Assembly: GCA_018221125.1 (NCBI GenBank)
Contig: JAAOYC010000031.1
Location: forward strand, 1-32,703
DNA: 32,703 nucleotides
Direction of reading: 5' to 3'
DNA from: Candidatus Woesearchaeota archaeon
GTDB taxonomy: Archaea > Nanobdellota > Nanobdellia > Woesearchaeales > WJKL01
The position numbers and the translations under genes were made by a program. Below, piece after piece: positions 1 through 17,884 of this stretch; positions within the stretch are counted from its first letter, which is position 1, and every line of letters starts with the position of its first letter. The notes under the pieces are model-generated. The model had not been told where the DNA came from. It was given only the letters and a program-made list of their open reading frames with translations, and ran no database searches.

Positions 1-1323
1 GGAACAGCAGGAGGCCAGAGATATACAATAAGATTTACTGTTAATGAGGAAACAGGAGAACAAACATTTTCTAAAGGAACATTCGGAACAGGAGCCAACG
101 AATTTACTGTTAATAATGAAGAAGTGATGTCACAGATATTGTCTTTAAGCAAAGACGCTGATAAGGTTGAGCCTAGTGCAGGTAATCTCATAATCAGGAA
201 AGATGGAGAGATAGAAGGAAGAGTTGCACATGGAACCTATGAAGGTGTAGAGGGATATACTGTCTACAACAAGTATGATGGCAGGAATCCAGAGAGAATA
301 ACCACTGTATCAGATGATGGAAAAACAAGGATAACAGAGACTTATGATTATGGCATTGACTTAAATGGAGACGGAAAAATACAAGGAAGCGATGAGAAAA
401 ATGCAAGAACCTCAACAGGATGGGAAAAGACAGAAGAGATTGATAGAACAGTAACTTACAGAGAAGTAGATCATAAGATCAAAGTAGTAGAAAAAACAAC
501 AAGAAAATATGAACAAACAGATAAAGGAGCTGACAACACAAAAAGCTATACAGATCATACAGTGGATAGTACAACAGGACAGCCTCAGCGAATAACAATA
601 ACAAAAGATGGAAAGACTGCTACAGTGAAATTTACAGATGAAAACGGAGAGCCGCTTGATGCACCTTCATATGAGGGAGACGAAACTTTGCGGAAAACAC
701 TAGAAGAAGAATATGCTAATGAGCATGGAGCATGGACTTCAAAAACAGTTTTCTCAGCAATCAATTATGTTCTTACAGAGTTCCAGGGATTAGGCTTTTA
801 CTCAAGATTCCTTGATGACGAAAACATGGCTCGATGGAGGGAAGGTGTTGACGAGTTCTTCTCAGAAAGCATCTTTGGGATTGAATACTGGAAATCAGGG
901 ATATGCTCAGAATGGTTTGATAATGAACTGGATGAATCAGGAGTTGCATTTATGGAAACACCAGCTGGATTGGCTACAGCAGCTGCTCATGTAGAGGGAA
1001 AGATAAGCTCAGCAACAGAGCATCCGAACGGAACAACAGTATATCTCTATAAAGTATCAGCTTTCCTGAGATTGATAGAAGAGGAAGATGGAGAAGACAC
1101 TATATTCAATATCCAATTAACAAAAGGAAGCCAAACAAAAAATCTGTTAAGCGAAAACCAGAAAATAGAGCCAGGAGACGACTGGAGTGCAGCAGGAACT
1201 GACATCCTTATAGTGCAGGATACTGTAAGATATACAAAAGCTTGTATACATTTTATAAAAAGAGGGCAGTTTGATAAGTATTCAGAAGATATCAACAGTA
1301 GGCTATGCAATAGAATAAGATGA
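1..1323 (+). CDS. Partial secreted/surface protein (5' end outside window), with an EF-hand/dockerin-like DLNGDGKIQGSDE loop
   Basis: Frame 1 is open from base 1 through the listed ORF at 124 to TGA at 1321-1323; repetitive polar extracellular-type composition; Ca-binding-like motif near 358-396. Confidence 0.75.
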   Translation, partial: GTAGGQRYTIRFTVNEETGEQTFSKGTFGTGANEFTVNNEEVMSQILSLSKDADKVEPSAGNLIIRKDGEIEGRVAHGTYEGVEGYTVYNKYDGRNPERITTVSDDGKTRITETYDYGIDLNGDGKIQGSDEKNARTSTGWEKTEEIDRTVTYREVDHKIKVVEKTTRKYEQTDKGADNTKSYTDHTVDSTTGQPQRITITKDGKTATVKFTDENGEPLDAPSYEGDETLRKTLEEEYANEHGAWTSKTVFSAINYVLTEFQGLGFYSRFLDDENMARWREGVDEFFSESIFGIEYWKSGICSEWFDNELDESGVAFMETPAGLATAAAHVEGKISSATEHPNGTTVYLYKVSAFLRLIEEEDGEDTIFNIQLTKGSQTKNLLSENQKIEPGDDWSAAGTDILIVQDTVRYTKACIHFIKRGQFDKYSEDINSRLCNRIR

Positions 1324-2075
1324 AACTAAAATATTTTAAAGACCAATTAAAGGATTTTCTGGATTCATTTAGATTAAAGTTCAGTTTCCTTCAGATTATG
1401 CTGTTTGATTTGATATTCTATGCAGCAGTGATGCCTTTGACATATGCTGTAGCATCCATGGTAAACAAGCAGGGAGAAGGAATAAACACTGCAATGCTCA
1501 CACAAGAAGCAATAATGCAGGCATCAGAGGCAGAGCTTGTAGCATTAACATCCCAGATCAGAGGGCTTGTTGTAGGAGCAATAGTTGGCTTTGGATTACT
1601 GGCAGTGATTACATTAGCTGTCTGGTCTTTAACAAGAGGATTGATATATTCAAAACTATTAGGCAAAAAATACACTTCAAAATATTTCAAAAAATCTCTG
1701 CTGCTCAACTTAGTTTTAGGATTAGGTCTTCTATTGATAATACCTTTCATAGCAGTTTTAGTAAGAACACAAAGTGTATTCTTGGTATATGTTGCTTTTA
1801 TAATAATATTAGCAGCAGCTTACCTAGTAACATTGACCTATATCCAGTTTACAAAAAAGAATGCAATATTTAATTCAATCGGAGAAGGATTTAGTTTTGG
1901 AGCAAAAGCCCTTCCAAGACTTTTGCTTCCAGGATTGTTAATCTTAATTGTAGGATTCCTGATAAATAAGATAACATTAAGGCTTCCGTCTTCCCTTTAC
2001 ATCTCATTAATCATCTTTGTAGCCTATATGGCATGGGCAAGAACATATTTCATATCAGAAACAAAAAAAATATAA
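1320..2075 (+). CDS. Polytopic membrane protein, unknown function
   Basis: 251 aa with several hydrophobic segments; ATGA overlap with preceding gene. Confidence 0.85.
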   Translation: MKLKYFKDQLKDFLDSFRLKFSFLQIMLFDLIFYAAVMPLTYAVASMVNKQGEGINTAMLTQEAIMQASEAELVALTSQIRGLVVGAIVGFGLLAVITLAVWSLTRGLIYSKLLGKKYTSKYFKKSLLLNLVLGLGLLLIIPFIAVLVRTQSVFLVYVAFIIILAAAYLVTLTYIQFTKKNAIFNSIGEGFSFGAKALPRLLLPGLLILIVGFLINKITLRLPSSLYISLIIFVAYMAWARTYFISETKKI

Positions 2076-2076
2076 A

Positions 2077-2643
2077 ATGAAAATAAGCAACAAACAAATC
2101 ATATTAGATAAGGTAATAAATGAATTAGATAGGTTTGTTATAGATTTTACAAATATATTAAAAAAACATACAAACTATGTCATTGTTAGTGGTTATGTCA
2201 GTATTCTTTTTGGAAGAACCAGAACAACAGAGGATATAGACCTTCTAGTACCTAAGATGAATCTGGTAGATTTCAAGAAACTTTATCAGGATATTCTATC
2301 AAATAATTTTTGGTGCATCAATGCTGAAAATCCTGAAGTGATCTATAACGATTATTTAAACAAGGATATAGCAGTGAGATTTGCCAGAAAAGATGCAGCT
2401 GTCCCAAACATGGAGTTTAAACTTATAAGAACAATAGTGGACAAAACAAGTCTAAAAGAATCTATAGAAGTTAAAATAGGAAAAAACATCTTAAAAATAT
2501 CTCCACTCGAGATGCAGATAGCTTTTAAAAAGAAAATCCTTGGAGCTCCCAAAGATATGGAAGATGCCAGACACTTGGAAAAATTATTCAAAGATAGTTT
2601 AAATATGAAAAAGTTAAAAAAATATGAACAGATGTTAAGATGA
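2077..2643 (+). CDS. Nucleotidyltransferase-fold protein (AbiEii/DUF6036-like)
   Basis: Motif VSGYVSILFGRTRTTEDIDLLVPK resembles the GG(x)nG-R-T-xDID NTase signature. Confidence 0.7.
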   Translation: MKISNKQIILDKVINELDRFVIDFTNILKKHTNYVIVSGYVSILFGRTRTTEDIDLLVPKMNLVDFKKLYQDILSNNFWCINAENPEVIYNDYLNKDIAVRFARKDAAVPNMEFKLIRTIVDKTSLKESIEVKIGKNILKISPLEMQIAFKKKILGAPKDMEDARHLEKLFKDSLNMKKLKKYEQMLR

Positions 2644-2783
2644 TATTTGACAAAAAGAAAAATCAAAAAGAAAGATTTGAATTTATTGATTTTTGGGTAG
2701 AATACATGAAAACCCATGAAGACAAAGAATGGTCTAGGCAGCAGGCAATCATTATCAATTCAGTATTAAAAAGAACTAAATAA
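2640..2783 (+). CDS. Small 47-aa protein coupled to the NTase gene (not in ORF track)
   Basis: ATG at 2640 overlaps the TGA of the NTase (ATGA); translates MIFDKKKNQKERFEFIDFWVEYMKTHEDKEWSRQQAIIINSVLKRTK*; fills the gap before 2788. Confidence 0.65.
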   Translation: MIFDKKKNQKERFEFIDFWVEYMKTHEDKEWSRQQAIIINSVLKRTK

Positions 2784-2787
2784 GAAA

Positions 2788-4707
2788 ATGTCAAAAAAAA
2801 GAGGTCAGATAACGATTTTCATAATCCTTGGAATAATTATACTACTTTCTATTTTCCTGTTCATCTATTTTAGAGAGGCAGTAACTGTTTTTACACCAGA
2901 GAGGGTTATTCCTCCTGAGCTGGAGCCTTTGGATAATTTTGTCGGAGGCTGTGTAAACAGGATAGCAAGAGACGGACTTAACATTCTAGGTGCAAATGGA
3001 GGCTTCATCAGGTTCCCTGATGATATTGAGCTAGACCCAGGAGCTTCATTGAGAACAAATCCATTATTCCCCTCAATAAAAGTTCCTTTGTGGCATTTTA
3101 GAGGCACAACAAGAGTGCCTTCTGAAGACTACATGAAAGAGGATCTGGCTTATTACATCGACCAGAACCTTGATGAATGCCTCGATAACCTAGAAGCCTT
3201 CCAGGAGCAGTTTGAGATAATAGAGCTCGAGCCAAGAAAAGTATTTGTAGAATTGACAGACAGAAGCGTTGATGTTATCCTGGATTACAGGCTTGAGATA
3301 AGGTCATTAGCAGAAAATCAGACAACAAGAATAAATGAATTCAGGACTTCAGTTCCAGTAAGGCTGAAAACAGTTTATGAATTAGCGAGAAAAATCCTTG
3401 ATGAAGAGATTCTAGAGAAATTCATAGAAGTAAGGACCATTGACTTGCTGGCATTAGATGATGATATCCCTTATACAGGAATGGAATTCACATGCACCCC
3501 AAAAATTTGGTATATCCAGGATGTAAAGGCAAAACTAAAAAAATTGCTAAGAGCCAATCTTCCTATGATCAGGGTTGACAAAACAAGCTACCAGCCTGTT
3601 CCTCCAGACCAGCAGTATGTGAAAACCCATTACATATGGGATGTAACTGACTTAAAATATCCAACAACACATGTAAGCTTCAGTTATGAGGAATCATGGC
3701 CAATGGAGATGTATGTAAGGCCAAATGACGGCCCTATCCTAAAATCAAATGCTCAAAGAGGATTTGATCTGCTTTCATTCATGTGCATCCACATGCATCA
3801 CTTCACTTATGATATAAGATACCCTGTTCTAACAACAATAACAGATGACCAGGGAAAAAATCACGAGAAATACACATTTAGCTTTGCATTCGAAGCAGGC
3901 ATTGACCATAACTTCCCAGACAATACAAACTTTGGAATAAGTGAATTTAACTTTGAGCCAAGAGAAACATCAGAAAGATTCTGCCTTGAATCTGTAAAAA
4001 ACACCCTAAAAATCAGGACATTTGAGAATTTCACAACATTGTTTGGAGAAGAACACAATGATCTTCCAGGTGTTAATCTAACCTACACATGCATCAGATT
4101 GAAATGCCCAGTAGGACAGACAGAATGGCAGTTCAGAGGGCAGGAGGCATCTATTACAAAACAAGTTCCTTTCTGCGTGAATGGCGTTTTAAGAGGAACA
4201 AAAGAAGGCTACAAAGAGAACTATATCTTTGTAAGCACTGACTCAGAAAAGACAGTTGACCTTTACTTAACACCAATTATCTCCAAGAACATAACAGTTG
4301 TAAAACACTCTGTTTACGGGCAAAGAGTTGGTCAGGAAGAGTCTCTGAAAGACCAGTCAGCAATAATCACAATCAAAAAAGACAGGCATAAAAGTACAGC
4401 AGTATTCCCAACAGAATATCAGGGAGTATTATCTGAATTAGAATTCCTTGGAAAATGGGATTATACATATAATATTGAAATATTTTTAGTAGATGAAGAG
4501 ACCACTCTGGGAGGAGGCACAATATCAGGAGGATATAAAGCAAGCTGGACAATCCCTTGGAACAAGATAAAAGGAGCAAGAGAGATAAAATTCCATGTAG
4601 TTGAATGGCCTCATGTAGGAGAAGATGATGCAGAGAAATTTTTCGAATATATGACCAATCTTGAGGAGATGTCCCAGCAAGTCCCTTCACCAGAATTCAC
4701 AATATAA
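2788..4707 (+). CDS. Surface protein with class III (pilin-like) signal peptide
   Basis: N-terminus MSKKRGQITIFIILGIIILLSIFLFIYF has KRGQ followed by a hydrophobic helix, as in archaeal class III signal peptides; 639 aa extracellular-type remainder. Confidence 0.75.
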   Translation: MSKKRGQITIFIILGIIILLSIFLFIYFREAVTVFTPERVIPPELEPLDNFVGGCVNRIARDGLNILGANGGFIRFPDDIELDPGASLRTNPLFPSIKVPLWHFRGTTRVPSEDYMKEDLAYYIDQNLDECLDNLEAFQEQFEIIELEPRKVFVELTDRSVDVILDYRLEIRSLAENQTTRINEFRTSVPVRLKTVYELARKILDEEILEKFIEVRTIDLLALDDDIPYTGMEFTCTPKIWYIQDVKAKLKKLLRANLPMIRVDKTSYQPVPPDQQYVKTHYIWDVTDLKYPTTHVSFSYEESWPMEMYVRPNDGPILKSNAQRGFDLLSFMCIHMHHFTYDIRYPVLTTITDDQGKNHEKYTFSFAFEAGIDHNFPDNTNFGISEFNFEPRETSERFCLESVKNTLKIRTFENFTTLFGEEHNDLPGVNLTYTCIRLKCPVGQTEWQFRGQEASITKQVPFCVNGVLRGTKEGYKENYIFVSTDSEKTVDLYLTPIISKNITVVKHSVYGQRVGQEESLKDQSAIITIKKDRHKSTAVFPTEYQGVLSELEFLGKWDYTYNIEIFLVDEETTLGGGTISGGYKASWTIPWNKIKGAREIKFHVVEWPHVGEDDAEKFFEYMTNLEEMSQQVPSPEFTI

Positions 4708-4709
4708 AA

Positions 4710-7700
4710 ATGATAAAGAAAACAATGAAACTAATGGCAGTATTCATGGTTCAGCTAATCATATTTCTTCCATTAGTGTCATCCTTGGAAATATCTAATG
4801 TTGCAGCTAAAGACTCAACAGACAAGTTCGCGCTGATAACATGGGATACAGACGAGCCAGCTGACAGCAGGGTATTCTATGGAGAAGACAAGGAAAATCT
4901 TGCTTTGACAAAAACAGATATTGACAAGACAAGAAACCATTCAATGTTCATAGGAGATCTTCAGCCTTCAAAAGTCTATTATTACAAGGTCAAGTCTGTT
5001 AATGGAGGAACAGCAGAAGATGATAATGGGGGCCAGATGCATGCTTTCCAGACACAGCAGACAGACAATCTTCCGTCTTATATTGAGGTTGTTATCCCGG
5101 AATATTCCAACAAGGCAAGAATAGATATCAATGGAAAGACAGAGCCCCTGACAAGAGTGGACTTGTATGTAAATGATGTAAAGATAAGAAAATCAGACCC
5201 AAATGAAAAAGGAGAATTTAATTTCCCAAGTGTTGAGCTGAGTGTATTCAGGACAAACGAGATAAGGATAAATGCAGTTGATTCAGCAGGAAACACCGCT
5301 GAAAAAATCTTTTCTTCAACAGTTGACTTGATCCAGCCCGAGGTAACAATCCCTGGCCTGCCGTCCATTACAACAGAACCTTCCTTAGAGATATCAGGAA
5401 CAATTTCAGAACTAGCATTCCTTGAGATATCCTTGAATGAAGAAGTTATGTTTGGAGAATCACTTTCAAACTTTTCAGAAACTCTTTCCTTGGAAGAAGG
5501 AGCAAACAGCATAAAGATAAGAGCAATTGACAGGGCAGGCAACACAGCATCATTGACAAGGTCAGTAATCCTTGATACAACTCCCCCAATAATTGAAAAC
5601 CTAAAGCCAGAAGCAGGAGCATTTTTCTACGAGGGAGGAACAGAAACAAACATTGATGGAGATACAGAGCCCAATGCAAAAGTTGAATTATATGTTGACA
5701 AAGAGCCGGATGGAAGGCCTCATCTCAAGACAGATGCTGATCCAAACGGGCATTTTGAATTTGATGATGTTGATTTAGAAGGGCCTTTCCTGGAGCATAT
5801 CGGAGGACTGGAAGGAGATATAGAAATTGGTTATGCTCCGGTTCCTTCAGAAGAAACAACAGAAGAAGCTGAATCACTAAGAGAACAGGAAAGAAGAGGA
5901 GAAGGCAAGCAGGAAGAAAGAACTGTCAAGCTTTATTTTGTTGTAAGAGATGCTGCAGGACATGTAACCCAGGAGCAGATAAGCTATACAATAGGCACCT
6001 GCTTTGCAGGAGGGATGAACTGGGGAGTCAACAATCTTATTGAATACCAGTCTCCTAATCTTCTAAGTCCAGAAAGATTGGGAGAAGGAACAGAGCTGAT
6101 ATCAGCAATACTAAATCTTTCTTACAGAGGCTTTGGAGAAAATCCCCAGATAAAAAGCATAAGATTTGAAAAAGCCTGCGATGCAACAGAGATGGCTACA
6201 GATGAAAGATACAACATGAGCTGCAAGATAATTCCAAATTCTCCAACTTTATTAAAAGGAAATGACAAAAAGACATTATGGTATCTGAAATATAATCTGA
6301 ACAAGCTTGAAGGGCTTGATGATTTTACAGAAGATCTGAAAGAAGACCTGTCAAGACAATTTTGGTTCCCGTTAAAGATAAAGATTGAATATACCCATAA
6401 ATTATACGGAGGAAATGAGACAACAGAGTTCCAGACCTCTTGCATAAGGCTTGCTTATGTTGTTGATACAAGCAGGGTAGATCCTCGTGATGTTCTTCCT
6501 GACTGGCTTTTAGAAGATGGAACAGAATTCTTAAATGAAACAATCACAGATTTGAATAATTTAATTAAACAGTTAGATACTGTTGTAAAATATGCTGCTA
6601 TTGCATGCCTTGTTGGATTTGCAGCAAAGACATTGACAATAATGTACAGAAACTGGCAGTCTTGGTGGGATTATCTGCAGGACAAGACAATCTCTGTTAA
6701 AGATGATAAAGATAAGACCAAATGCCCTAAGCCTGGAAAAACAACAAAAAAAAGGATAGGGGCAGGAGGAGCAATCACTGATGATACAACCCAGGCTGAT
6801 CTGAGCACAGAGGCATTGGAAAACCGATGTCCTGCAGCAGCAGCTGCATGGAAAACAGAAGCAAGCGCATACAACTTATACAGGTGGGCTTGCGACAGGT
6901 TCCTTTGCTCAGGAACACCGGCAAAATGGACAGAAAAAGCAACACCTGTTGAAGTAAGGCAAAGAATAGAAAAAGGAAGGCTCTGCGCAGGAGAAGTAGG
7001 AACAGACAGGAAATTCTTAAGACCAGACCAGGAATGCTCTGATAAGCAGAAAAAACCTTGCTGGGAATATAGCGGCAAGCTGTATGTATTTTCAGGAAAA
7101 ACAACCACTAAAGAGGATGGAGGGACATACTATGAACTTCAGGAAGTCCCGGGTCCTGGAAGACTTCCAAGTCTAAGGACATTAGAGGCAGAAAGAGACA
7201 ATCAGGGAAGGCCAATGCTTATCCTGAAAAAAGATTGTGCAGAAGAATGCGAGAAAAGAGGATATCTTGGAGATAAAAAAGCAAAACCTCCTAGAGCCCC
7301 TGGAGAATGCATATCTAAGATATCAGAAGTTCTTGATTATGAGCATGCATTTGAACAGTCAGCTATCTGTCCAAATAAAGACCAGACCTGTTATTGCATC
7401 GGAAGGAAGCTGACAAAAGAAGAGCGTGCAGAAGTTACAGCAGTAGGAGAAGAAGAAAAAGAAAAATGGGATTATCGTTATGATAAATTAGGATACATAA
7501 CATATGACAAGTACAAATATTATGAGGGAAGAGACAAGTCAGCCTGCTTTGGGCAGGATAATTTTATATTCCGTGATAGCCCTTATCTAAATCCTCAGGA
7601 GATGATTCCAGCATTCCAATGCTTGTGTGTAAGCCAGATAAAGAACAGGCTTGTTTTGCTAAGAAACATGATGCAGGGATTATACAACTGCTTGATGCAG

Positions 7701-10004
7701 ATAAAGACAACAGGAACAGCAGATGCAGGCATATGCAAGGAGATATTTACTCAATATGTATGCAAATGGTTATATAGATTAGTATCATATTTCATGCAGG
7801 GCTGCATGCCTTGGTCAGGAACAGGCAAGGATAATGAAGTAGGGATAGAGGATTATATACAGGCAGGTTCCAGTTCAATCTTTGGAGGAGTATTTGAATC
7901 AACATCTGATCTCCAATCTGATTATGACAGCGCTGCAATGGATAATTTCCTGGGAGTTGGAGAAGAAACTGTTGCAAACAAGATCTGCCTTGGAGCAATG
8001 ACAGGAGATTGGGGATGGGATTTGGAAGGATTCATGGACACAGCATATGCAACACCATTCTACACATCTGCAAGGGCATTCCCGGCTGACAGGGAATACT
8101 TGACATGGAATCCAACTAATGATCTATCAACATATGAATACCAGGTTGCATGGATGATTGCTCCTGGCTGCGAGCTGGACAGCTATACAGTCAGCCTTGC
8201 TTGCGTAACAGACAATGAATTTTTCACCTTTGATGGGGTTAGCTGCGAGGGATTAAGAGAGAACCAGAATTCCCCTTCAGGCGGCTGTGATTGCATAGGA
8301 GTTTCCCAGAGCACTGCAGTAAACAAGGTTTCGCAAGACAGGCCAGGCCCTGCAAAGATAATCTATACTTCAAGAAGGGTTTCTCAGGGAATATTCCAGG
8401 ACGGAAGCAGGCATGTCACTGCTGAAGAAGCCCGCAGGTATGATCATGTCAAGATTACTGCCTATGTAAACAATGATGAGGATTTCCAAAAATGCATTCC
8501 AGAAGCAAACAGGGTTGGAAACAGGATTGGAGTGTTCTATTCTCCAATAACAGACGCAACAACTCATGACATAGCAGCATGCAGATGGGATCTTATCTCA
8601 GGTCAGTTCTTATGCAGGGGAGGAGGCCTGCTATGGGATCAAAGAGGAAGAGCTTACTTTGGAGATATCAAATGCGGAGACCAGGACTGCAAGGACAAGG
8701 AATTCTATGCAGGAGATAGAATAAGCATAAGCGACTTACAAGCCTATGCACAGGGAAAAGACCAGTGCCTGCAAGTCACCCTGAAGAATGGCTATGGATC
8801 AACTGTCTATAACAGAGACTTCCTTGTTAAAGCTAATCCAGACGATTCATCCCAGTTTACAAAAATCTCACCCTCTCCATTTAAAGTAGATATGATAGAA
8901 AAGCTGGATGATCCACATTTCACACGCTCAGTTCCAAGATATACGATTACTCCAACTGGATTAGTGCTAAGCAGGATAGAAGAGCAGGGAGAAATAACTG
9001 CTATTCCAGGAAACTATCCAATATGGATAAGACACGTTCAAACACCAAGTATAGGAAAATTCAATGGAGATTTCAGCCTTGATGGAACTACCTGGATTCC
9101 ATTTACTAAAGATACAGAGTTTCCTCCAATAGGAGGGATAAAATTCCAGATCAAGCAAAAGCCCCTTGGAGTATCAGAAACAGGGCAAAAGCAGTTCACG
9201 ATTAAGATAACACCTGTGTCAACAGTTGTAACACAGGCACCATGGCATCTATTCCTTGAATTAAGGCATTATCCAGAAGAAGGACAGTCCTGCACAGACT
9301 CGCGCTCAGAAGATATGATAAGCTATCAGGGAATCTTCCAAAAAAGAGACATTACATTATCAATTCTTCCTAAAACCCAGCAAGACTATAATAGATGTGA
9401 TCCAGGAGGAACAGTCTTTAACAGGAATGCGCAATGTGACTGCAACAGAGATGGAACAAAGACAGGAGCAGAAGATTGCGATGGAGACACAAAGGTTTAT
9501 TGCTATCAGAATAATCTTGAACAACAACCATCTTGCAAAGAGATACCTGCTTGCGTAACAGGAGACAGGCTAAACTCTGCTGCCTGCGACTGTGACTTAT
9601 ACGGAACAATAGATGAATATGAAAAAACTTGCAAGTACTGCATAGATAATATCTATTGCAGTGATACAAAGCCTGAGGTTGCAATTGCTGCTCAACCATC
9701 GCTCCCAACAGCAGATACATTAATAAAAACACTGACACAAGAAGAACTTAAAAAACTAAGAAATGCAGAATCCACTGCACCTTCTGATGCTTTGTGGATA
9801 TTGATTGAACATGGGGGTGACATTGTTTATTTAAAAATAATTGATAATCTATTATATGGCCAAAAAATAGGAGACATATGGAGAAGAACATCATATTCAG
9901 AAGACCCAACACAGAGAGTCATATATAGAAAAGTGAATGGGGGATTGCAGGTGTATTCCATGAAATATGATGTATGGCAGCAGACCCATATAATAACAAG
10001 ATAA
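4710..10004 (+). CDS. Giant secreted/surface protein: FnIII/Ig-like N-terminal repeats, internal hydrophobic segment, Cys-rich C-terminal part
   Basis: 1764 aa ORF; N-terminal hydrophobic signal; FnIII-like WDTDEPADSRVFYG...LQPSKVYYYKV; repeated ...AVDSAGNTAE / AIDRAGNTAS / VRDAAGHVTQ Ig-like ends; hydrophobic AAIACLVGFAAKTLTIM near 6595-6645. Confidence 0.85.
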   Translation: MIKKTMKLMAVFMVQLIIFLPLVSSLEISNVAAKDSTDKFALITWDTDEPADSRVFYGEDKENLALTKTDIDKTRNHSMFIGDLQPSKVYYYKVKSVNGGTAEDDNGGQMHAFQTQQTDNLPSYIEVVIPEYSNKARIDINGKTEPLTRVDLYVNDVKIRKSDPNEKGEFNFPSVELSVFRTNEIRINAVDSAGNTAEKIFSSTVDLIQPEVTIPGLPSITTEPSLEISGTISELAFLEISLNEEVMFGESLSNFSETLSLEEGANSIKIRAIDRAGNTASLTRSVILDTTPPIIENLKPEAGAFFYEGGTETNIDGDTEPNAKVELYVDKEPDGRPHLKTDADPNGHFEFDDVDLEGPFLEHIGGLEGDIEIGYAPVPSEETTEEAESLREQERRGEGKQEERTVKLYFVVRDAAGHVTQEQISYTIGTCFAGGMNWGVNNLIEYQSPNLLSPERLGEGTELISAILNLSYRGFGENPQIKSIRFEKACDATEMATDERYNMSCKIIPNSPTLLKGNDKKTLWYLKYNLNKLEGLDDFTEDLKEDLSRQFWFPLKIKIEYTHKLYGGNETTEFQTSCIRLAYVVDTSRVDPRDVLPDWLLEDGTEFLNETITDLNNLIKQLDTVVKYAAIACLVGFAAKTLTIMYRNWQSWWDYLQDKTISVKDDKDKTKCPKPGKTTKKRIGAGGAITDDTTQADLSTEALENRCPAAAAAWKTEASAYNLYRWACDRFLCSGTPAKWTEKATPVEVRQRIEKGRLCAGEVGTDRKFLRPDQECSDKQKKPCWEYSGKLYVFSGKTTTKEDGGTYYELQEVPGPGRLPSLRTLEAERDNQGRPMLILKKDCAEECEKRGYLGDKKAKPPRAPGECISKISEVLDYEHAFEQSAICPNKDQTCYCIGRKLTKEERAEVTAVGEEEKEKWDYRYDKLGYITYDKYKYYEGRDKSACFGQDNFIFRDSPYLNPQEMIPAFQCLCVSQIKNRLVLLRNMMQGLYNCLMQIKTTGTADAGICKEIFTQYVCKWLYRLVSYFMQGCMPWSGTGKDNEVGIEDYIQAGSSSIFGGVFESTSDLQSDYDSAAMDNFLGVGEETVANKICLGAMTGDWGWDLEGFMDTAYATPFYTSARAFPADREYLTWNPTNDLSTYEYQVAWMIAPGCELDSYTVSLACVTDNEFFTFDGVSCEGLRENQNSPSGGCDCIGVSQSTAVNKVSQDRPGPAKIIYTSRRVSQGIFQDGSRHVTAEEARRYDHVKITAYVNNDEDFQKCIPEANRVGNRIGVFYSPITDATTHDIAACRWDLISGQFLCRGGGLLWDQRGRAYFGDIKCGDQDCKDKEFYAGDRISISDLQAYAQGKDQCLQVTLKNGYGSTVYNRDFLVKANPDDSSQFTKISPSPFKVDMIEKLDDPHFTRSVPRYTITPTGLVLSRIEEQGEITAIPGNYPIWIRHVQTPSIGKFNGDFSLDGTTWIPFTKDTEFPPIGGIKFQIKQKPLGVSETGQKQFTIKITPVSTVVTQAPWHLFLELRHYPEEGQSCTDSRSEDMISYQGIFQKRDITLSILPKTQQDYNRCDPGGTVFNRNAQCDCNRDGTKTGAEDCDGDTKVYCYQNNLEQQPSCKEIPACVTGDRLNSAACDCDLYGTIDEYEKTCKYCIDNIYCSDTKPEVAIAAQPSLPTADTLIKTLTQEELKKLRNAESTAPSDALWILIEHGGDIVYLKIIDNLLYGQKIGDIWRRTSYSEDPTQRVIYRKVNGGLQVYSMKYDVWQQTHIITR

Positions 10005-10009
10005 ATAAA

Positions 10010-10858
10010 ATGAAAAAACCAAAAAATATCCAGGAAAATATAATCTTAGATTCATTAAAAGAATCAGTAGATGTAATAAAGAAGAAAAGAGGCTATTTTG
10101 GAATACTTTTCATAACTCAACTGGCTTTCATAATTGCATTGTTCTTTATATTAGGCGCATTTGTAGCTTACTCAACCCAGATGATGGAGCAAGCTCAGAC
10201 TTTCTTTGAAGACTTAGGGGATGTTCCAGCTGATATGGATCCAATTGGAACAGCCAGCTTATTGGAGAATGCAGATGAAATCTCTGTAGTCTACAACAGC
10301 ATGATGGATTTCAGGAACAGAATGGTATTATTAGGTTTCATAGCATTTGGAATATACTTATTATTAGGAGGATTGAATTGGGATCTGGCTAATCTTATGG
10401 TTAATGAAAAATCTTCTTTTATCCTGTATGAAGTGATGTTTTTCATCTCTACTGCAGTCTTCACAATAACAGCATTCCTTTTCACAGGCTTTTTCATAAG
10501 CCTCTTAAACTATATTGGAACAGGACCATTGGCAAGACTGATATTCATGATAGTATTGACAATGATATTCTACTTTGCATTCATCTCCTTTGGTTTGATA
10601 AACAAATATGATACAAAGCAGAAGACGCAGTTCCTAAAGCATACAATCAGGCTTGGCTACAAGAAATTCGGGACATTATTATTCAGCTTTTTCTTCATGC
10701 TGCTGATAATAAGCATATTTGCAGGAGTTATCTATTATTCATTGACAGACCCAATCTGGATTTTCCCAATAGCAGGCATCTTCTTGTTTATCCTTGCACT
10801 GGCATGGGGAAAGATATATTTCCTGATTACAGTTAAAAAAGTAAATGAAAAAATTTAA
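10010..10858 (+). CDS. Polytopic membrane protein, unknown function
   Basis: Hydrophobic helices; listed ORF starts at 9974 inside the upstream gene, but ATG at 10010 (MKKPKNIQENII) directly after the upstream stop is more plausible. Confidence 0.8.
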   Translation: MKKPKNIQENIILDSLKESVDVIKKKRGYFGILFITQLAFIIALFFILGAFVAYSTQMMEQAQTFFEDLGDVPADMDPIGTASLLENADEISVVYNSMMDFRNRMVLLGFIAFGIYLLLGGLNWDLANLMVNEKSSFILYEVMFFISTAVFTITAFLFTGFFISLLNYIGTGPLARLIFMIVLTMIFYFAFISFGLINKYDTKQKTQFLKHTIRLGYKKFGTLLFSFFFMLLIISIFAGVIYYSLTDPIWIFPIAGIFLFILALAWGKIYFLITVKKVNEKI

Positions 10859-11784
10859 GAAACAGTTTCTGGAATCTCTATTCCATGTTCTTCGCATTTC
10901 TTAATGATATATTCCGGAACATCCATAGTTACACCAGGATTCATCTCATACTTCCATTCTGTATTATGCATGCCTAGTTTTATAGCATTCTTCAGGCATC
11001 CTTCAACAGCTCCTTCAGTCTTTTTTTTGTCTTCTTTGCTCAATCTCTCCATATCACAGATTATCTGGATTTTCATTTCATAAATATCCTTATCATAAGC
11101 TTCTCTAAGATCTTTTGGCACATCAGCCCCTATTAAATCCAATGCATCAACATAAGAAAGGTCCAAAGATCCTTTTGTTTTGGTAAAGTATTTCTCAACT
11201 TCATCTCCCACAAATAAATTCACTGATTTTCCATCAGCATCAGGAAACCTATAACCTCTGCGCATAGGGTTTATCTTTCCCTCTATTTCTAGACCAAAAT
11301 ACAGGAATTCCATGCAGCTGATTTCAATATCTCCTTCTGCAAGCTCCCAATTAGTTTTGCGATGGTCATGCTCAAATCTCTGGGAATATTCCCCAGTTTG
11401 GAATTTGATTGCATTTTCCACTCCTAGTTCAAAATCAGAATTCAGTACTCCCAACTGCCATGTTATATCAACATATTTGTTTCTTCCGTGATTATGTGTA
11501 TATTCTTGTTTTGTCTCAACCAGAACTTTGCTTCCTGCTGACAGATCCTTGACTCTTTGATACAGGTCATTGACTGTCTTTTCCATCTCTTCATATTGTT
11601 TTTCATATCCTTTTGGAACTAATCCAAAATTAACAATCATAAAATCTTTAAACTCGTCTCCAGTTGATTCTCCATTTCTTATTTTTTTCCGGATTTCATT
11701 TTCTTTTTCATATCTTTCAGATTTAGCAGTTTCAATCTTTTTTTCTAACCCTTCAATATCTTTCATATCATCTTCTAATTTCAT
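10855..11784 (-). CDS. Hypothetical protein (309 aa), last gene of purine operon
   Basis: Complete ORF with coiled N-terminus, 6 nt downstream of purM; stop overlaps the convergent gene stop (TTAA). Confidence 0.75.
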   Translation of the reverse strand: MKLEDDMKDIEGLEKKIETAKSERYEKENEIRKKIRNGESTGDEFKDFMIVNFGLVPKGYEKQYEEMEKTVNDLYQRVKDLSAGSKVLVETKQEYTHNHGRNKYVDITWQLGVLNSDFELGVENAIKFQTGEYSQRFEHDHRKTNWELAEGDIEISCMEFLYFGLEIEGKINPMRRGYRFPDADGKSVNLFVGDEVEKYFTKTKGSLDLSYVDALDLIGADVPKDLREAYDKDIYEMKIQIICDMERLSKEDKKKTEGAVEGCLKNAIKLGMHNTEWKYEMNPGVTMDVPEYIIKKCEEHGIEIPETVS

Positions 11785-11790
11785 TTTGCA

Positions 11791-12966
11791 TCAACTCGTA
11801 TATCCTATAAAGTCTTCTTTTCCTTTTTGACCTAATGGATTGTGTATCGTTGTTCTTAAATCTTCTTCATCACTTGCTTCTACTTTCCCGACAATCTTTG
11901 CTGTGTTCTTTCCTTGCTCACTCTCTCCTTGTTCATTGATCAGCTGAACAACTCTTTCTGCAATGTCTTGTGTAGGAACTATGTAGGCAAATCCCATACC
12001 CATATTCTGTTTTTTATAGGCTGTGTGGGCATCCCATCCAGATTCTTCCATAAGAAGCTTATGGATAGGCAGTGGTTCTAATGCATCAGTAATCTCAAAA
12101 GAGACTCCTTCTCCAACCCTGTTAAAATTATGAAGCCCGTTTCCTGTGATATTTACTCCATAGATATCCTTGCTATCAAATTCTTTTCCAACCAAAGCAG
12201 CTTCTACAAGATATAATGCTGTAGGAACCTGCATTGCTTCCAAAATAGTCTTTCCTTCCAGAATTTCTGGCTTGTCATCAAGCTTGAACCTTCCTTTGTA
12301 CTGGCTTTTCCATTCTTCCCTGTATTCAAAATCTGATGTGAATAATGCATGCCTTGCTCCAGTATAACCATTGCTGTGCAATCCGCTTGAAGAGACTCCT
12401 ACAATAGAATTTCCTGGCTTTGGATCTAGATTTGGAACTTTCTTTTTGTCAATATATCCAGTCATCACAATCCCAAAATCAACTCCTTTGTTAGGAACAC
12501 CCAATGAAATCATCTCATCAAGAGAAGCAGTCTCCATCTTTCCTATGTTCAGGTCCCATTGCACATCAGGTATCTTTATCCTTTCCAATGCATCAACAAA
12601 ACCATCCATGATTTCTCCCATATGCTTCTCTTCAACTTCAGTCTGGCAAGCCATATAGATGTTGATTGAATCAGGGATTCCATGGATCAATGTAGCCAAG
12701 TCATTTGCACTCATTGCAACACCATCTGTAGGCCCTTGTCTATAATTATTAGACCAAGCACTTAAGAAAAGCTTTGTCCCATTCCCGTCAACCAAGAACA
12801 CAGAGTAATAATTTGTATTTAGCGGATTTTCCCTTAATTCAGCAAAAAAGCCTTTTGCTTTATCCACTCTTCTGTTGAACAGCCAAGGCGCTCTTTCAAG
12901 AGCCTTTTTACCGCTTGCAATTGCAACTTCTTCACTTGCTTCATAATCAGCTGTATCTTTTGGCAT
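11791..12966 (-). CDS. purM: Phosphoribosylformylglycinamidine cyclo-ligase (AIR synthetase)
   Basis: PurM-like features: TDGVAMSANDLATL, GSIVGVSSSGLHSNGYTGAR-like segment, GMGFAYIVP. Confidence 0.88.
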   Translation of the reverse strand: MPKDTADYEASEEVAIASGKKALERAPWLFNRRVDKAKGFFAELRENPLNTNYYSVFLVDGNGTKLFLSAWSNNYRQGPTDGVAMSANDLATLIHGIPDSINIYMACQTEVEEKHMGEIMDGFVDALERIKIPDVQWDLNIGKMETASLDEMISLGVPNKGVDFGIVMTGYIDKKKVPNLDPKPGNSIVGVSSSGLHSNGYTGARHALFTSDFEYREEWKSQYKGRFKLDDKPEILEGKTILEAMQVPTALYLVEAALVGKEFDSKDIYGVNITGNGLHNFNRVGEGVSFEITDALEPLPIHKLLMEESGWDAHTAYKKQNMGMGFAYIVPTQDIAERVVQLINEQGESEQGKNTAKIVGKVEASDEEDLRTTIHNPLGQKGKEDFIGYTS

Positions 12967-12968
12967 TT

Positions 12969-13799
12969 TTATTCCCCCTCATGCAGATTTTTAATAGCAA
13001 CTTGTTCTTTTTTGTATTCCCAATCATCTTTTGAAAGCATGCACGCTGAACTTACTGCAAATTTCCCCATTGCTTCGTAAATACCATTTGCAATATCCTG
13101 CTGGGTTTCAGGTATTACTGTTTCGACTTCTAATCTGATATCTCTTGGTTCTCCAGTAAAAGCAGGCAATGGATTTTGATTTACACCTTCATATGTTGCA
13201 ATCATTTTTGCTTGTCCTTCTACTAAAGGAAATTTATAGAAACAATGTAAAGGCTCTCCATTGGTATCCCTTTTAATTACACCCAACATAGCATAATCTC
13301 CTTGCACAACTCCGCATATCCTTGGTGTAAAATTTGGATCATCTGGTTCATAACAAGCAATGTCGATTGTTCTTCCGTCTTTTGTTTCCATATAGTGAGG
13401 CTCGCAAAAAGACATAGGCAGCAAATCTTCAATAGGAAGTTCTCTTTCCATAAATCTTCGGTACATATCAGCTGCATCTCCAATTAAATTTGTTTGCACC
13501 CCATTGCTTACTATAATAGTTCTACCAATTTTCACTATAGCATCATACACTAATAAAGAAGGGTCTCCTTTTGCAAGTTGTTCTGGATCTGTTACATCAA
13601 TAGAAATTCTTTTTTTATCTTTAGTAGCTTTAAGTTTTCTTGCCTGACTAGATTCACTTCTTCCAGAAAGACCATAAGCCACAACATTTGCTCCATCATA
13701 GCTATGCCCTGCATGAGAGCCTCTCTTTGTCCTTCCAATTATAATAACCCTTCCTGGGTATTCCATTTCAGCTAATTTTTCTAATCCTTCCATTTTCAT
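12969..13799 (-). CDS. purO: IMP cyclohydrolase, PurO family
   Basis: N-terminus YPGRVIIIGRTKRG...YGLSGRSESSQAR matches the YPGRGIIIG...MGRSxNSRNR pattern of PurO/IMP cyclohydrolase; start set at ATG 13799 after GGGGGGA SD rather than the TTG at 13808. Confidence 0.8.
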   Translation of the reverse strand: MKMEGLEKLAEMEYPGRVIIIGRTKRGSHAGHSYDGANVVAYGLSGRSESSQARKLKATKDKKRISIDVTDPEQLAKGDPSLLVYDAIVKIGRTIIVSNGVQTNLIGDAADMYRRFMERELPIEDLLPMSFCEPHYMETKDGRTIDIACYEPDDPNFTPRICGVVQGDYAMLGVIKRDTNGEPLHCFYKFPLVEGQAKMIATYEGVNQNPLPAFTGEPRDIRLEVETVIPETQQDIANGIYEAMGKFAVSSACMLSKDDWEYKKEQVAIKNLHEGE

Positions 13800-13812
13800 T
13801 CCCCCCAAATTA

Positions 13813-14877
13813 TTATTTTAAAAATCCTCTGTCAGCCAATGCTGCTAGGATTACTTCTTTCCTTGGCTCTGTTGTTATTTCAGTTGGTGTTCCTGTTATT
13901 GCTTCTCTGATGTTGCAGTATAATACAACTCCATCTCTCAATACATCATCATCCATGTGGTGCGCTGCTAATTCAGCTTTTTTCTCTGGAGTATGCAGTT
14001 CAAGTCTTTCAACATAATCCCTGAAATGCTGCTTATCTCCCTGCACAATTGTAAATTCATTCTTCTCTTCATTCAATGCATATTTGTCCTTATCCCATAT
14101 CCTAGAAGAATCTGGTGTTACACATTCATCAATCAGGATAATCTTTCCATCTGGAAGATAACCAAATTCCCATTTTGTGTCTGCCAGCAGTTTTCCTTTT
14201 GATTCTAGATCTGAGTGTATCGTATTATATAATCTGAATGAAGCATCAACAACATAAATCAAATCTCCTGGAGTCTTTAATCCAAATGCTTGATAGTTTT
14301 TCCTGATTATGTCAACTGTAAGCTTTGGATCATCTACTTCTGGATCCATTCCTTCAAATTCAGGAATGTCAAAATCTTTTACCTGCCCTTTTGCAGTTGG
14401 TGTGAAGATGACTTCATCAAGCATCTCATTCTTCCTGTATCCAGGTCTTAGATTTACACCGCAGAATTCTGCTCCTTGTTCAGGGCCATTTGCTTTTGAA
14501 TAACCTCTCCATCCTGAGCCTGTAATATATTTTCTAAAGACCATTTCTACTAAAATCTGGTCTGCTTTATCCACAAGCCACGTGTTTGGAGCTAGGTTTT
14601 CCCTGAAATGATTTGGGATTATGTTTTCTGTTTTTCCAAAATATTTGGAAGAGATTCCATCTAAGTTATCTCCTTTTGCATATACTTGCCTCTTATGGAC
14701 AACATCGTGTGTTGATAAATCATCACTTGATACTATTATCAATTGTTCTCCAAGATCATAAACATTCCTTACTTTACCTGTTTTTGGAGGAGCTACAACC
14801 TTAACTTCAGGCCATATCTCTTTCTTCAGTGTGTTTTCCAGAACTTCTGGTGTTATTTGACTTTTATCTATTGTCAT
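13813..14877 (-). CDS. purC: Phosphoribosylaminoimidazole-succinocarboxamide synthase
   Basis: GKVRNVYDLG, SSDDLSTHDVV, RKYITGSGWRGY, DTKWEFG, IDECVTPDSSRIW are SAICAR synthetase motifs. Confidence 0.92.
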   Translation of the reverse strand: MTIDKSQITPEVLENTLKKEIWPEVKVVAPPKTGKVRNVYDLGEQLIIVSSDDLSTHDVVHKRQVYAKGDNLDGISSKYFGKTENIIPNHFRENLAPNTWLVDKADQILVEMVFRKYITGSGWRGYSKANGPEQGAEFCGVNLRPGYRKNEMLDEVIFTPTAKGQVKDFDIPEFEGMDPEVDDPKLTVDIIRKNYQAFGLKTPGDLIYVVDASFRLYNTIHSDLESKGKLLADTKWEFGYLPDGKIILIDECVTPDSSRIWDKDKYALNEEKNEFTIVQGDKQHFRDYVERLELHTPEKKAELAAHHMDDDVLRDGVVLYCNIREAITGTPTEITTEPRKEVILAALADRGFLK

Positions 14878-14879
14878 TT

Positions 14880-15731
14880 TTATTCTCCTCCAATCTGAAA
14901 ACCATTATATCCTAAAGGTTTTCCATCAACATAAACAGCTCTCCATTCATCAAAATGAGCTTTCTCAGTTCCTAAACCAATCCTTCCTTCAGAAATCATC
15001 TTCAAAGCAGTTGTTAAAGCAGGCCAGTCACTAGCCTCTTTTTGTCTGTCTTGATGACCTATTTCAGTATCAGTTCCATCAACATACTGTCTTAATTGTG
15101 CTGTTCTTTCTTCAAGAGGAAGTCTCGAGAATTCTCCATTAACCCTAACCCAATGGCCTTGTGTCAAAATTTCTCCATGGTCTTCACCATCATCTACTAT
15201 AATTACTGAAGACTTTGTTGATAGTTCACCAGCTTTTATTGCATCATAAACAGCATCATCTCCAATATAAATTCTTGAATCTCCCTCACCGAATGGTGGC
15301 AGATGAGAAGGATGAATATTAATTATCTTGTCAGGATAAGATTCTAACAATGGCTCTTCAACTAATCTCATGTATCCTCCAAGAACAATCAAATCAATGC
15401 CAAAGCCCACTTCCTCTTCAAACATATGAAGTAAATGAACAATATCTTGATTGAATCTAATACTTTTTCTTTTGTATTTAGCCATTGCTTTAGAATTTCC
15501 TTGCGCTTTCTTCCAACTGCCGCATGCGTGGTAGCCATTAATCATCAATTGCTCAATCTCACTCAATTCCTTTAAATCAAATAGCTTGGCATTTGGTTTG
15601 TCAGAAAAAATCAAGACAGGTTCTATAACCTTGGCACATTCTCTTAGATTAGTGCCGCTTCCAGAGCCAAATCCAACCCAGTGAAAATCTTCTGGTTTTC
15701 CGTCATAAATTCTTTTTATTTCTTCTGTCAT
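14880..15731 (-). CDS. purN: Phosphoribosylglycinamide formyltransferase-like (PurN type)
   Basis: IVLGGYMRL, NIHPSHLPPF and VDDGEDHGEIL supply the formyltransferase Asn/His/Asp residues. Confidence 0.8.
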   Translation of the reverse strand: MTEEIKRIYDGKPEDFHWVGFGSGSGTNLRECAKVIEPVLIFSDKPNAKLFDLKELSEIEQLMINGYHACGSWKKAQGNSKAMAKYKRKSIRFNQDIVHLLHMFEEEVGFGIDLIVLGGYMRLVEEPLLESYPDKIINIHPSHLPPFGEGDSRIYIGDDAVYDAIKAGELSTKSSVIIVDDGEDHGEILTQGHWVRVNGEFSRLPLEERTAQLRQYVDGTDTEIGHQDRQKEASDWPALTTALKMISEGRIGLGTEKAHFDEWRAVYVDGKPLGYNGFQIGGE

Positions 15732-15733
15732 TT

Positions 15734-17074
15734 TTATTCCAACCCTTTATCACCAATATCATTTCTGTGGACAAATACTTCTACATCATTCAGTTCTCTT
15801 GTAGCTTTCATAATCACATCCACAGCTGCATAAGCTTTATCCTGCGCCCCCTCAAGCCCTTTAGCTGAATATGCAGTTACTCCAAGAACTCTTCCACCAG
15901 CAGTTACTATTTTCTTATCTTCCAAACCAGTTCCTGCATGGAAAACCTTAACATCGCGCCTTTTGGAAACTTCTTTCAATCCTCCAATTGGAAATCCTTT
16001 TTCATAGCTTGCAGGATAGCCATTTGATGCCATTACAATACAGCAGGAAGCTCCTGGCTTGAATTCAACATTTACTTCATCAAGTTTTCCATCCAGAGCA
16101 GCTGATATAGGCTTATACAATCCGTCTTTAAACATCATTACAGCTGGCTGTGCTTCTGGGTCTCCAAATCTGCAGTTATACTCCAAAATCTTAGGACCCT
16201 CTTCTGTCATAATAACAGCAGCATACAAGAATCCTTTGAACTCTTCTCCGCCTTTTTGCATTTCCCATACTAATGGTGCCATCATCTCATTTGCAACCTT
16301 TCTAACCATTGCAGGATCTGCAACCTTAGCAGGTCCATATGCTCCCATTCCTCCTGTATTCGGACCTTCGTCTCCATCAAGCAAAGGCTTGTGGTCTTGT
16401 ATAGACATTTCTAAAGGAACAACACTCCCTCCATCAGAAATTCCAAAAACAGAAAACTCCTGTCCAAATAATCTTTCAGAAATTAAAACCTCAGGACCAT
16501 AAGCTGCAGCATGTTCATGTAATTTAGATAAAGCTTCTTCTCCACTATCACAAACATAAACACCTTTTCCTCCTGTTAATCCTCTTGCTTTAATTACAAT
16601 TCCTTTAGGAGTAGCCATTTTCTTTATTGCTGCTTCAGCAGCATCTGTTGTAGTGCATAACATAGATTCTGCTTGAGGAATACCTGCCCTATACATTATA
16701 TCACTAGAATAAGATTTATCAGCTTCTATATCAGCAGCACCACTAGTTGGACCAAATATTCTGTCATATCCTCTTTCATTGAAAAAATCAACAATGCCAT
16801 CAACCAAAGGCTGTTCAGGACCAACAACAACCATATCAATACTTTCTTTTTCAACAAGGTCAGCAAGTTTTTCAAAATTCTCTTTTTTTGTTCCATCAAA
16901 AGCAACAAGTTCTCCAGAATCATCCTTTACTTTTACATTTTTTCCTTTTTTCTCAGCATCAGTTCCAGGATTTCCTTTTGCATAAAGAACTTCATCAACT
17001 TCTGAATCTTGAGCAATACTATAACCTAAAGCATGTTCTCTTCCTCCACTACCAATAATTAAGACTTTTTTCAT
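15734..17074 (-). CDS. purD: Phosphoribosylamine-glycine ligase
   Basis: VLIIGSGGREHALGY, VVVGPEQPLVDGIVD, GPNTGGMGAYGPA, EYNCRFGDPEAQ are PurD motifs. Confidence 0.95.
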   Translation of the reverse strand: MKKVLIIGSGGREHALGYSIAQDSEVDEVLYAKGNPGTDAEKKGKNVKVKDDSGELVAFDGTKKENFEKLADLVEKESIDMVVVGPEQPLVDGIVDFFNERGYDRIFGPTSGAADIEADKSYSSDIMYRAGIPQAESMLCTTTDAAEAAIKKMATPKGIVIKARGLTGGKGVYVCDSGEEALSKLHEHAAAYGPEVLISERLFGQEFSVFGISDGGSVVPLEMSIQDHKPLLDGDEGPNTGGMGAYGPAKVADPAMVRKVANEMMAPLVWEMQKGGEEFKGFLYAAVIMTEEGPKILEYNCRFGDPEAQPAVMMFKDGLYKPISAALDGKLDEVNVEFKPGASCCIVMASNGYPASYEKGFPIGGLKEVSKRRDVKVFHAGTGLEDKKIVTAGGRVLGVTAYSAKGLEGAQDKAYAAVDVIMKATRELNDVEVFVHRNDIGDKGLE

Positions 17075-17086
17075 TTTTCATTCCTC

Positions 17087-17884
17087 CTATTTCATAGCAT
17101 CTACTGCTGCTTTAAACATAAGACAGGTAGGCTCATAGACTCCACTTGTTGTTTCTTTTTCCCTCTTGACTGCAGCCCTGTCAGGTCTTTGGAAATCATG
17201 ATGCAGTCTTTCAAAATGAGGGAACAACACCAAATTATTATCCCATCCAAATCCTGCAATATCTGCAGTTGAACCATTTGGATTATATCTGTCTCCTTTT
17301 GATGATTTATAGAAATCGCACATATGCCCTTTTTCATATGTTAATGCAACCAGGTTTCTCTCTTTTACAACTTCTAATAAATCTTTTCTTATAGTTATCC
17401 TTCCTTCACCATGGGATATTGGAGCAAATATAGGATCTTCATACATTTTCAAATAACTAAGCCAAACATTATCATTTTTAGGATTGACTTTTGTATCCCA
17501 GAAACTTGTTTCGTGTTTTCCAGAATCATTCTGCATTGTTCCTACAGGTATTGGGAACAAATCTAATTTAGCCAAGACCTGCAGCCAGTTGCATACGCAA
17601 TATATTGGGAAACTCTCATCGTGTAGTTTTTCATATAATTTACCACGAAGCCCAGAAGCTTCAACTCTGTTTTTAATTGATTGTCCTGCTCCTAATTGGT
17701 CTCCCATTGTAAAACCGCCAGGCAATCCAGCTCCTTGATAATCATCTATTAAAGAAGGCTCTGCAATCAGATCATTCAGATGCCTGTACTCAACATCAGC
17801 TCCACCAAGCTTATCAAAACAATAACCTAATTCTTCATGTGAATTAATTCCAAGTCCAGTTGGTATTATTACTTTGGGTCTCAT
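17087..17884 (-). CDS. purQ: FGAM synthase glutaminase subunit-like
   Basis: GLPGGFTMGDQLGAG, VCNWLQVL (nucleophile Cys) and ISHGEGRI match class I GATase PurQ; ATGA overlap with purL. Confidence 0.85.
   Translation of the reverse strand: MRPKVIIPTGLGINSHEELGYCFDKLGGADVEYRHLNDLIAEPSLIDDYQGAGLPGGFTMGDQLGAGQSIKNRVEASGLRGKLYEKLHDESFPIYCVCNWLQVLAKLDLFPIPVGTMQNDSGKHETSFWDTKVNPKNDNVWLSYLKMYEDPIFAPISHGEGRITIRKDLLEVVKERNLVALTYEKGHMCDFYKSSKGDRYNPNGSTADIAGFGWDNNLVLFPHFERLHHDFQRPDRAAVKREKETTSGVYEPTCLMFKAAVDAMK

Follow-up and report, generated by a model that had tools for sequence, protein, structure and literature searches.

Several archaeal surface systems invite comparison with the locus described below. 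In Sulfolobus, the Bindosome (BasABC/BasEF) joins an ATPase/platform pair to large class III-signal binding proteins that differ from classical pilins, and SlaB anchors the S-layer. In pilins, a glutamate at position +5 is common, though not strict in archaea. Archaeal type IV pili may include minor pilins and large PilY-like adhesins, and a census of these systems found nanoarchaea whose type IV ATPases could not be matched to cognate pilins as well as, in other archaea, large adhesin-like proteins encoded beside class III proteins (Makarova, Koonin and Albers 2016, PMC4858521).

The locus described here lies in the window, i.e., the whole stretch of DNA analysed (32,703 nucleotides from a Candidatus Woesearchaeota archaeon), which is one entire contig (G000:C10) of a fragmented 0.96 Mb assembly. 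A preliminary description had listed at least seven tightly packed genes on one strand, and the ORF listing agrees: positions 1-10858 contain seven ORFs on the same strand with spacings of -4 to +5 nt (Table 1). The window holds only part of the operon, which begins on a second contig from this genome. The last 21 nt of that contig (G000:C8, 6447 bp) are identical to the first 21 nt of the window and in frame with them. G000:C8 supplies c3a (714 aa), B (1021 aa) and the N-terminal 250 aa of p1, so that the full operon reads c3a-B-p1-p2-[p3-p4]-c3b-p6-p7 over ~17 kb. The gene next after p7 (10855-11784) lies on the opposite strand and precedes a purine-biosynthesis-like run; judged by eye, PurM/PurO/PurC/PurN/PurD/PurQ/PurL-like genes occupy 10855-21036 on the minus strand, convergent with the operon.

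Table 1. Operon features in the window, with their junctions and the evidence for each assignment.
Feature	Position	Strand	Junction with preceding ORF	Basis
p1, secreted protein of 683 aa whose last 440 aa are encoded here (N-terminus with signal peptide on G000:C8)	1..1323	+	5'-partial, truncated by contig edge	contig overlap; in relatives, homologues lie between B and p2
p2, 251-aa 6-7-TM membrane protein, p7 paralogue	1320..2075	+	ATGA overlap	hhalign; no consistent Pfam match
p3, nucleotidyltransferase, weakly DUF2204-like; insert, outside the surface system	2077..2643	+	1-nt gap	52/193 genomes, at other sites; missing from relatives' operon
p4, 47-aa p3 partner; inserted mobile pair	2640..2783	+	ATGA overlap	homologue beside 18/19 other p3 homologues
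c3b, 639-aa class III-signal protein: one N-terminal TM, 8 Cys, extracellular alpha/beta and Ig-like domains	2788..4707	+	4-nt gap	177/193 genomes; AF2 model; conserved Cys
predicted leader MSKKRG, prepilin peptidase cleavage G6↓Q7	2788..2805	+		motif statistics over class III proteins
p6, giant secreted protein of 1764 aa with a signal peptide, FnIII/Ig-like domains and a Cys-rich core (50 Cys)	4710..10004	+	2-nt gap	Pfam; adjacency to c3b
p6 residues 598-661: predicted 64-residue helix with moderately hydrophobic segment 628-646	6501..6692	+		AF2 model of 426-1365; hydropathy
p6 residues 960-1023: Cys helical hairpin common to B	7587..7778	+		hhalign B vs p6
p7, 282-aa 6-7-TM membrane protein, p2 paralogue	10010..10858	+	5-nt gap; alternative start at 9974	hhalign; after p6 in 31 loci

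Judging from homology within the operon, it is one cassette that has been doubled, each copy encoding a class III-signal protein (c3), a giant Cys-rich secreted protein and a 6-7-TM protein. This is because the members of the two halves are homologous to each other: c3a and c3b align with an hhalign probability of 100 over 614 columns, p2 and p7 with 99.9 over 249 columns, and B and p6 with 98.3 over the 64 columns of the Cys-rich hairpin. Sister orders of this class also have a large, mostly Cys-rich protein after c3, and in about half of 17 loci a p2/p7-type gene comes after the giant. No second cassette copy adjoins any of the 17, some of which are truncated by the end of a contig. On the simplest reading, an ancestral three-gene cassette underwent tandem doubling in the lineage of the window.

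The preliminary description had made its proposal depend on conservation of the neighbourhood across DPANN, and the neighbourhood is conserved. Among named relatives (metagenome genomes of Woesearchaeota and Nanoarchaeota), p6 lies directly 3' of c3b in 77 of 80 loci, usually only a few nt away (median), and because it recurs in this way the arrangement is more than chance. Of the three exceptions, one is cut off by a contig end (L139), one has an additional 135-aa ORF between the two genes (L117), and the third is L115, which was counted as an exception and whose locus map does show p6 next to c3b. Where p7 follows p6 (31 loci), the median gap is 2 nt. Inserts were found at 1 of 64 c3b-p6 junctions and 1 of 24 c3a-B junctions; at the p2-c3b junction they were found in 11 of 27 cases (median gap 457 nt) and at p1-p2 in 6 of 28. 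Relatives of c3b occur in 177 of the 193 genomes of the order, or 125 of 135 high-quality ones, and a profile search recovered the c3 family in 241 of 279 genomes sampled across the phylum. The cassette is carried by almost all Woesearchaeota and relatives, tiny symbiotic-type archaea. These counts bear on the idea that unrelated genes are co-transcribed here by happenstance. The idea is consistent with p1, whose length and sequence vary greatly among relatives, and with the clearly foreign p3/p4, but it is contradicted for c3, the giant and the 7-TM protein by order-wide and class-wide conservation of the c3-giant pair and by duplication of the whole cassette. It holds for p3/p4 only, and for the operon as a whole it is very improbable.

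That no named system could be recognised, as first noted, agrees with our searches. Pfam, NCBIfam and the PDB gave no usable match for c3, p2/p7 or the cores of the giants, and NCBIfam names no cassette protein, giving weak Ig-like (OmpL47) matches below cut-offs. A search of openly licensed papers found no description of this cassette. A viral origin was considered and rejected, as a search of viral contigs found no relative.

The class III signal first read on c3b is supported by its homologues, in which the motif [KR][GAS]↓QxTxF is nearly strict. Of 144 distinct class III proteins, 135 were scored, by a script that required Q at +1 and a hydrophobic stretch and left the minus positions free; position -2 is K/R in 130 of the 135 and position -1 is G/A/S in all of them. 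The c3 proteins thereby have the class III signal of type IV pilins (basic -2, small -1, one hydrophobic helix). The glutamate at +5 is absent, as this position is F in 130 and Y in 5 of the 135 proteins. One clade, which includes the c3b homologues at L101, L110 and L114, has a Lys/Arg/Ser-rich leader of ~20-50 residues instead of the usual ~6. The source genome also encodes a third class III relative (G000:C56 4354-12617, L050), beside a protein of 2135 aa that carries carboxypeptidase-regulatory and Ig-like domains and is followed by several one-TM proteins.

The AF2 model of c3b is confident (pLDDT 91.6) and shows a TM helix (residues 4-32), a break or linker (33-42), a second helix (43-69), an alpha/beta part and C-terminal beta domains. 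A pilin fold would have one long, unbroken first helix that packs against a beta head, and this model has none. The top 50 Foldseek matches to PDB structures include no pilin. Fold matches are only partial, to Ig-type proteins; the best of them, TIE and SlaB, reach a TM-score of at most 0.15 by query length. A PDB sequence search with the c3b profile gave no match. Eight Cys are invariant or nearly so across 62 c3b sequences.

The membrane helix followed by a flexible linker and an ectodomain would also suit a motor-independent envelope lattice, in which c3 proteins would serve as stalks in the membrane, the giants would coat the surface, and the class III signal would fix only leader and anchor, with no filament being built. 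Foldseek found a local match of c3b to the S-layer protein SlaB (E 4e-5), the gene dose is large for such small genomes, and the cassette is unlinked to a motor. The SlaB match, however, is weak and lacks global similarity (TM-score 0.14/0.18), probably reflecting common Ig-like domains. The strictly kept prepilin-type processing motif and the near-universal type IV motor in the same genomes also argue against a lattice, which we regard as a tentative second choice.

The N-terminal part of p6 is FnIII/Ig-like (Pfam Glucodextran_B, 2.3e-8; Big_13; others), and its domains are of this kind only, with no DUF2341/PilY domain. Its Cys-rich core has no significant Pfam match. In this core, ~30 Cys are conserved in >=85% of 60 aligned homologues; B has 27 Cys, and conserved Cys are present in c3b, B and p6. 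The AF2 model of p6 residues 426-1365 is moderate (pLDDT 75.6), and the core model has no significant PDB match, which weakens the case for a surface assembly. Across their 36 members, p2/p7 have no consistent Pfam match. The 'EF-hand' of p1 is a single 12-residue loop (residues 120-131 of the partial protein), and 3 of 30 homologues have any EF-hand-type match, so that the EF-hand-like label was dropped.

The prepilin peptidase family PF01478 is present above its cut-off in 178 of 193 genomes and the platform family PF00482 in 158. The source genome has its A24 peptidase on G000:C68. A 760-aa TadA/FlaI-type ATPase occurs in 190 of 193, with roughly 55-64% identity in most, and is usually followed by a 730-aa protein with 8-9 TM segments, which is present in 114 of 118 genomes. 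The latter matches T2SSF weakly (E 0.8); we call it platform-like because distant 620-aa relatives likewise adjoin secretion ATPases. In the source genome, the ATPase and a 728-aa platform-like protein lie on G000:C38 (28646-33161, L226). The co-occurrence of prepilin peptidase and secretion ATPase in the same genome is a pilus-type feature. The 35 genomes without PF00482 had been taken as motor-less, which would exclude a pilus motor. This was withdrawn: PF00482 misses the platform-like protein beside the 760-aa ATPase, and weak T2SSE matches in the six inspected of the 35 are the full-length ATPase, followed by the platform-like protein.

A nearby ATPase or TadC-like platform had been suggested as something to look for, and none appears in the operon maps; both genes lie elsewhere, mostly on other contigs. 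One genome (G006) has a divergent type IV pilus locus (L059 89-5471, G006:C1) with T2SSE, two T2SSF and small one-TM proteins, at least ~3.5 kb from the c3a end of the operon; as it was seen in G006 alone, linkage of the cassette to such loci was rejected. The 760-aa ATPase is also present in genomes without detectable c3 (family f38) and therefore has other substrates. As motor and cassette are both near-universal, their co-occurrence cannot decide whether the cassette uses the motor. The c3/giant cassettes are nonetheless candidate substrates of the orphan secretion ATPases. The early label 'pilus-like' may hold: the processing motif, the peptidase and the presence of a type IV-type motor in the genome speak for it, and the motor's location outside the operon, the broken first helix and the structure matches speak against it. 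The class III signal, the ATPase and the platform-like protein, together with the almost constant pairing of giant and c3, might also fit a pseudopilus-like device for type II-like secretion (or DNA/nutrient uptake), with c3 acting as its piston or tip and the giants as its substrates or receptors. However, the cassette has no small pseudopilin, and the giants bear adhesin-like Ig domains rather than obvious enzymes, which makes such a device improbable.

The preliminary description had counted the nucleotidyltransferase p3 and the 47-aa p4 as operon members. Both are missing from the operon in relatives, and p3 homologues are patchily distributed, at other genome sites in 52 of 193 genomes; p3/p4 are a travelling pair inserted between the two cassettes and lie outside the surface system. 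A p4 homologue adjoins 18 of 19 other p3 homologues inspected, so that the two genes move as a unit without the genes around them. The p4-family proteins are 41-77 aa long with the motif W..Y...H.DK.WS.QQ...INS, and a PADLOC search with p4 gave no match. The pair is probably toxin-antitoxin-like, a candidate unnamed module: it resembles MNT-HEPN and other such modules in joining a nucleotidyltransferase to a small partner and in its patchy distribution, although p4 is not a HEPN protein. It sits where relatives have MNT nucleotidyltransferase+HEPN, ParE and PIN genes, which with p3/p4 itself are among the p2-c3b inserts; by eye only, some p1-p2 inserts resemble PIN, Fic and HicB proteins. More generally, toxin-type genes gather at the cassette joints (L074, L076, L085, L108, L116, G159:C5 and others), with the c3-giant joints intact.

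Taken together, the cassette is most likely a DPANN-specific surface assembly, perhaps served by an orphan type IV-filament motor. We give a probability of about 0.55 to the reading that the operon encodes a motor-served assembly on the cell surface, made by an ancestral cassette that is present twice, as c3a-B-(p1)-p2 and c3b-p6-p7. A surface assembly is suggested by the c3-giant adjacency, the almost never interrupted core junctions and the homology of the cassettes; by the retained processing motif and the frequency of peptidase, ATPase and platform-like partner; and by the c3-giant pairs of sister orders, the confident c3b model and the conserved Cys. The census cited above (PMC4858521) also speaks for this reading. 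The reading is weakened by the motor being encoded away from the cassette in the loci inspected, by the other substrates of the ATPase and by the lack in c3b of E at +5, a continuous pilin-like first helix or a pilin among its top PDB matches. In this model, c3 would be exported N-in, and the chromosomal prepilin peptidase would remove its short basic leader at [KR][GAS]↓Q. The N-terminal helix would remain in the membrane, with a disulfide-stabilised ectodomain outside, the disulfides of the cassette proteins being formed outside the cell. The giant Ig/Cys-rich protein, secreted via its own signal peptide, would dock on the c3 ectodomain as an outward adhesin or effector part, and the 6-7-TM protein may be a membrane partner for export or assembly. 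The 760-aa ATPase and the 730-aa platform-like protein, encoded elsewhere, would probably act as the motor for extending or displaying the complex. The extracellular assembly with its own membrane components that was first proposed is supported, its adhesive or host-contact function being putative.

How Woesearchaeota and relatives, mostly uncultured, touch other cells is a question for which this operon offers a concrete gene set. The cassette is part of the lineage core, is unnamed in Pfam and NCBIfam, has no solved fold and takes up to ~17 kb of ~1 Mb genomes. It also offers candidate substrates for the nanoarchaeal secretion ATPases left without cognate pilins (PMC4858521). We speculate, with considerable doubt, that it could be the main cell-contact organelle of Nanoarchaeia-class DPANN and the cognate substrate so far missing for the near-universal orphan type IV-type motor; its class III proteins, which are not pilins, would then bring giant disulfide-rich adhesins to partner cells.

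Compared with the Bindosome, the cassette likewise has large non-pilin class III-signal proteins, with an ATPase/platform pair in the genome. Unlike the Bindosome, no substrate-binding domain was found in it, the giant partner has no Bindosome counterpart, and the 760-aa ATPase scores 58 bits against the BasE model NF053672 (cut-off 1000 bits). With the S-layer stalk SlaB, c3b shares the plan of a membrane-anchored chain with Ig-like domains. Unlike those archaeal type IV pili that have minor pilins and large PilY-like adhesins (Makarova, Koonin and Albers 2016, PMC4858521), the cassette has no pilin fold match, F rather than E at +5, no DUF2341/PilY domain and a motor and peptidase outside its locus; it is duplicated as a whole, and its families are absent from Pfam and NCBIfam. 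Like these pili, it combines a class III signal with an A24 peptidase and a VirB11/TadA-type ATPase in the genome, a large secreted protein beside the class III protein, and conserved cysteines. As the pilin fold and an assembly ATPase and platform in the same locus were looked for and not found, we do not class the cassette as a type IV pilus, and it may work with the same motor.
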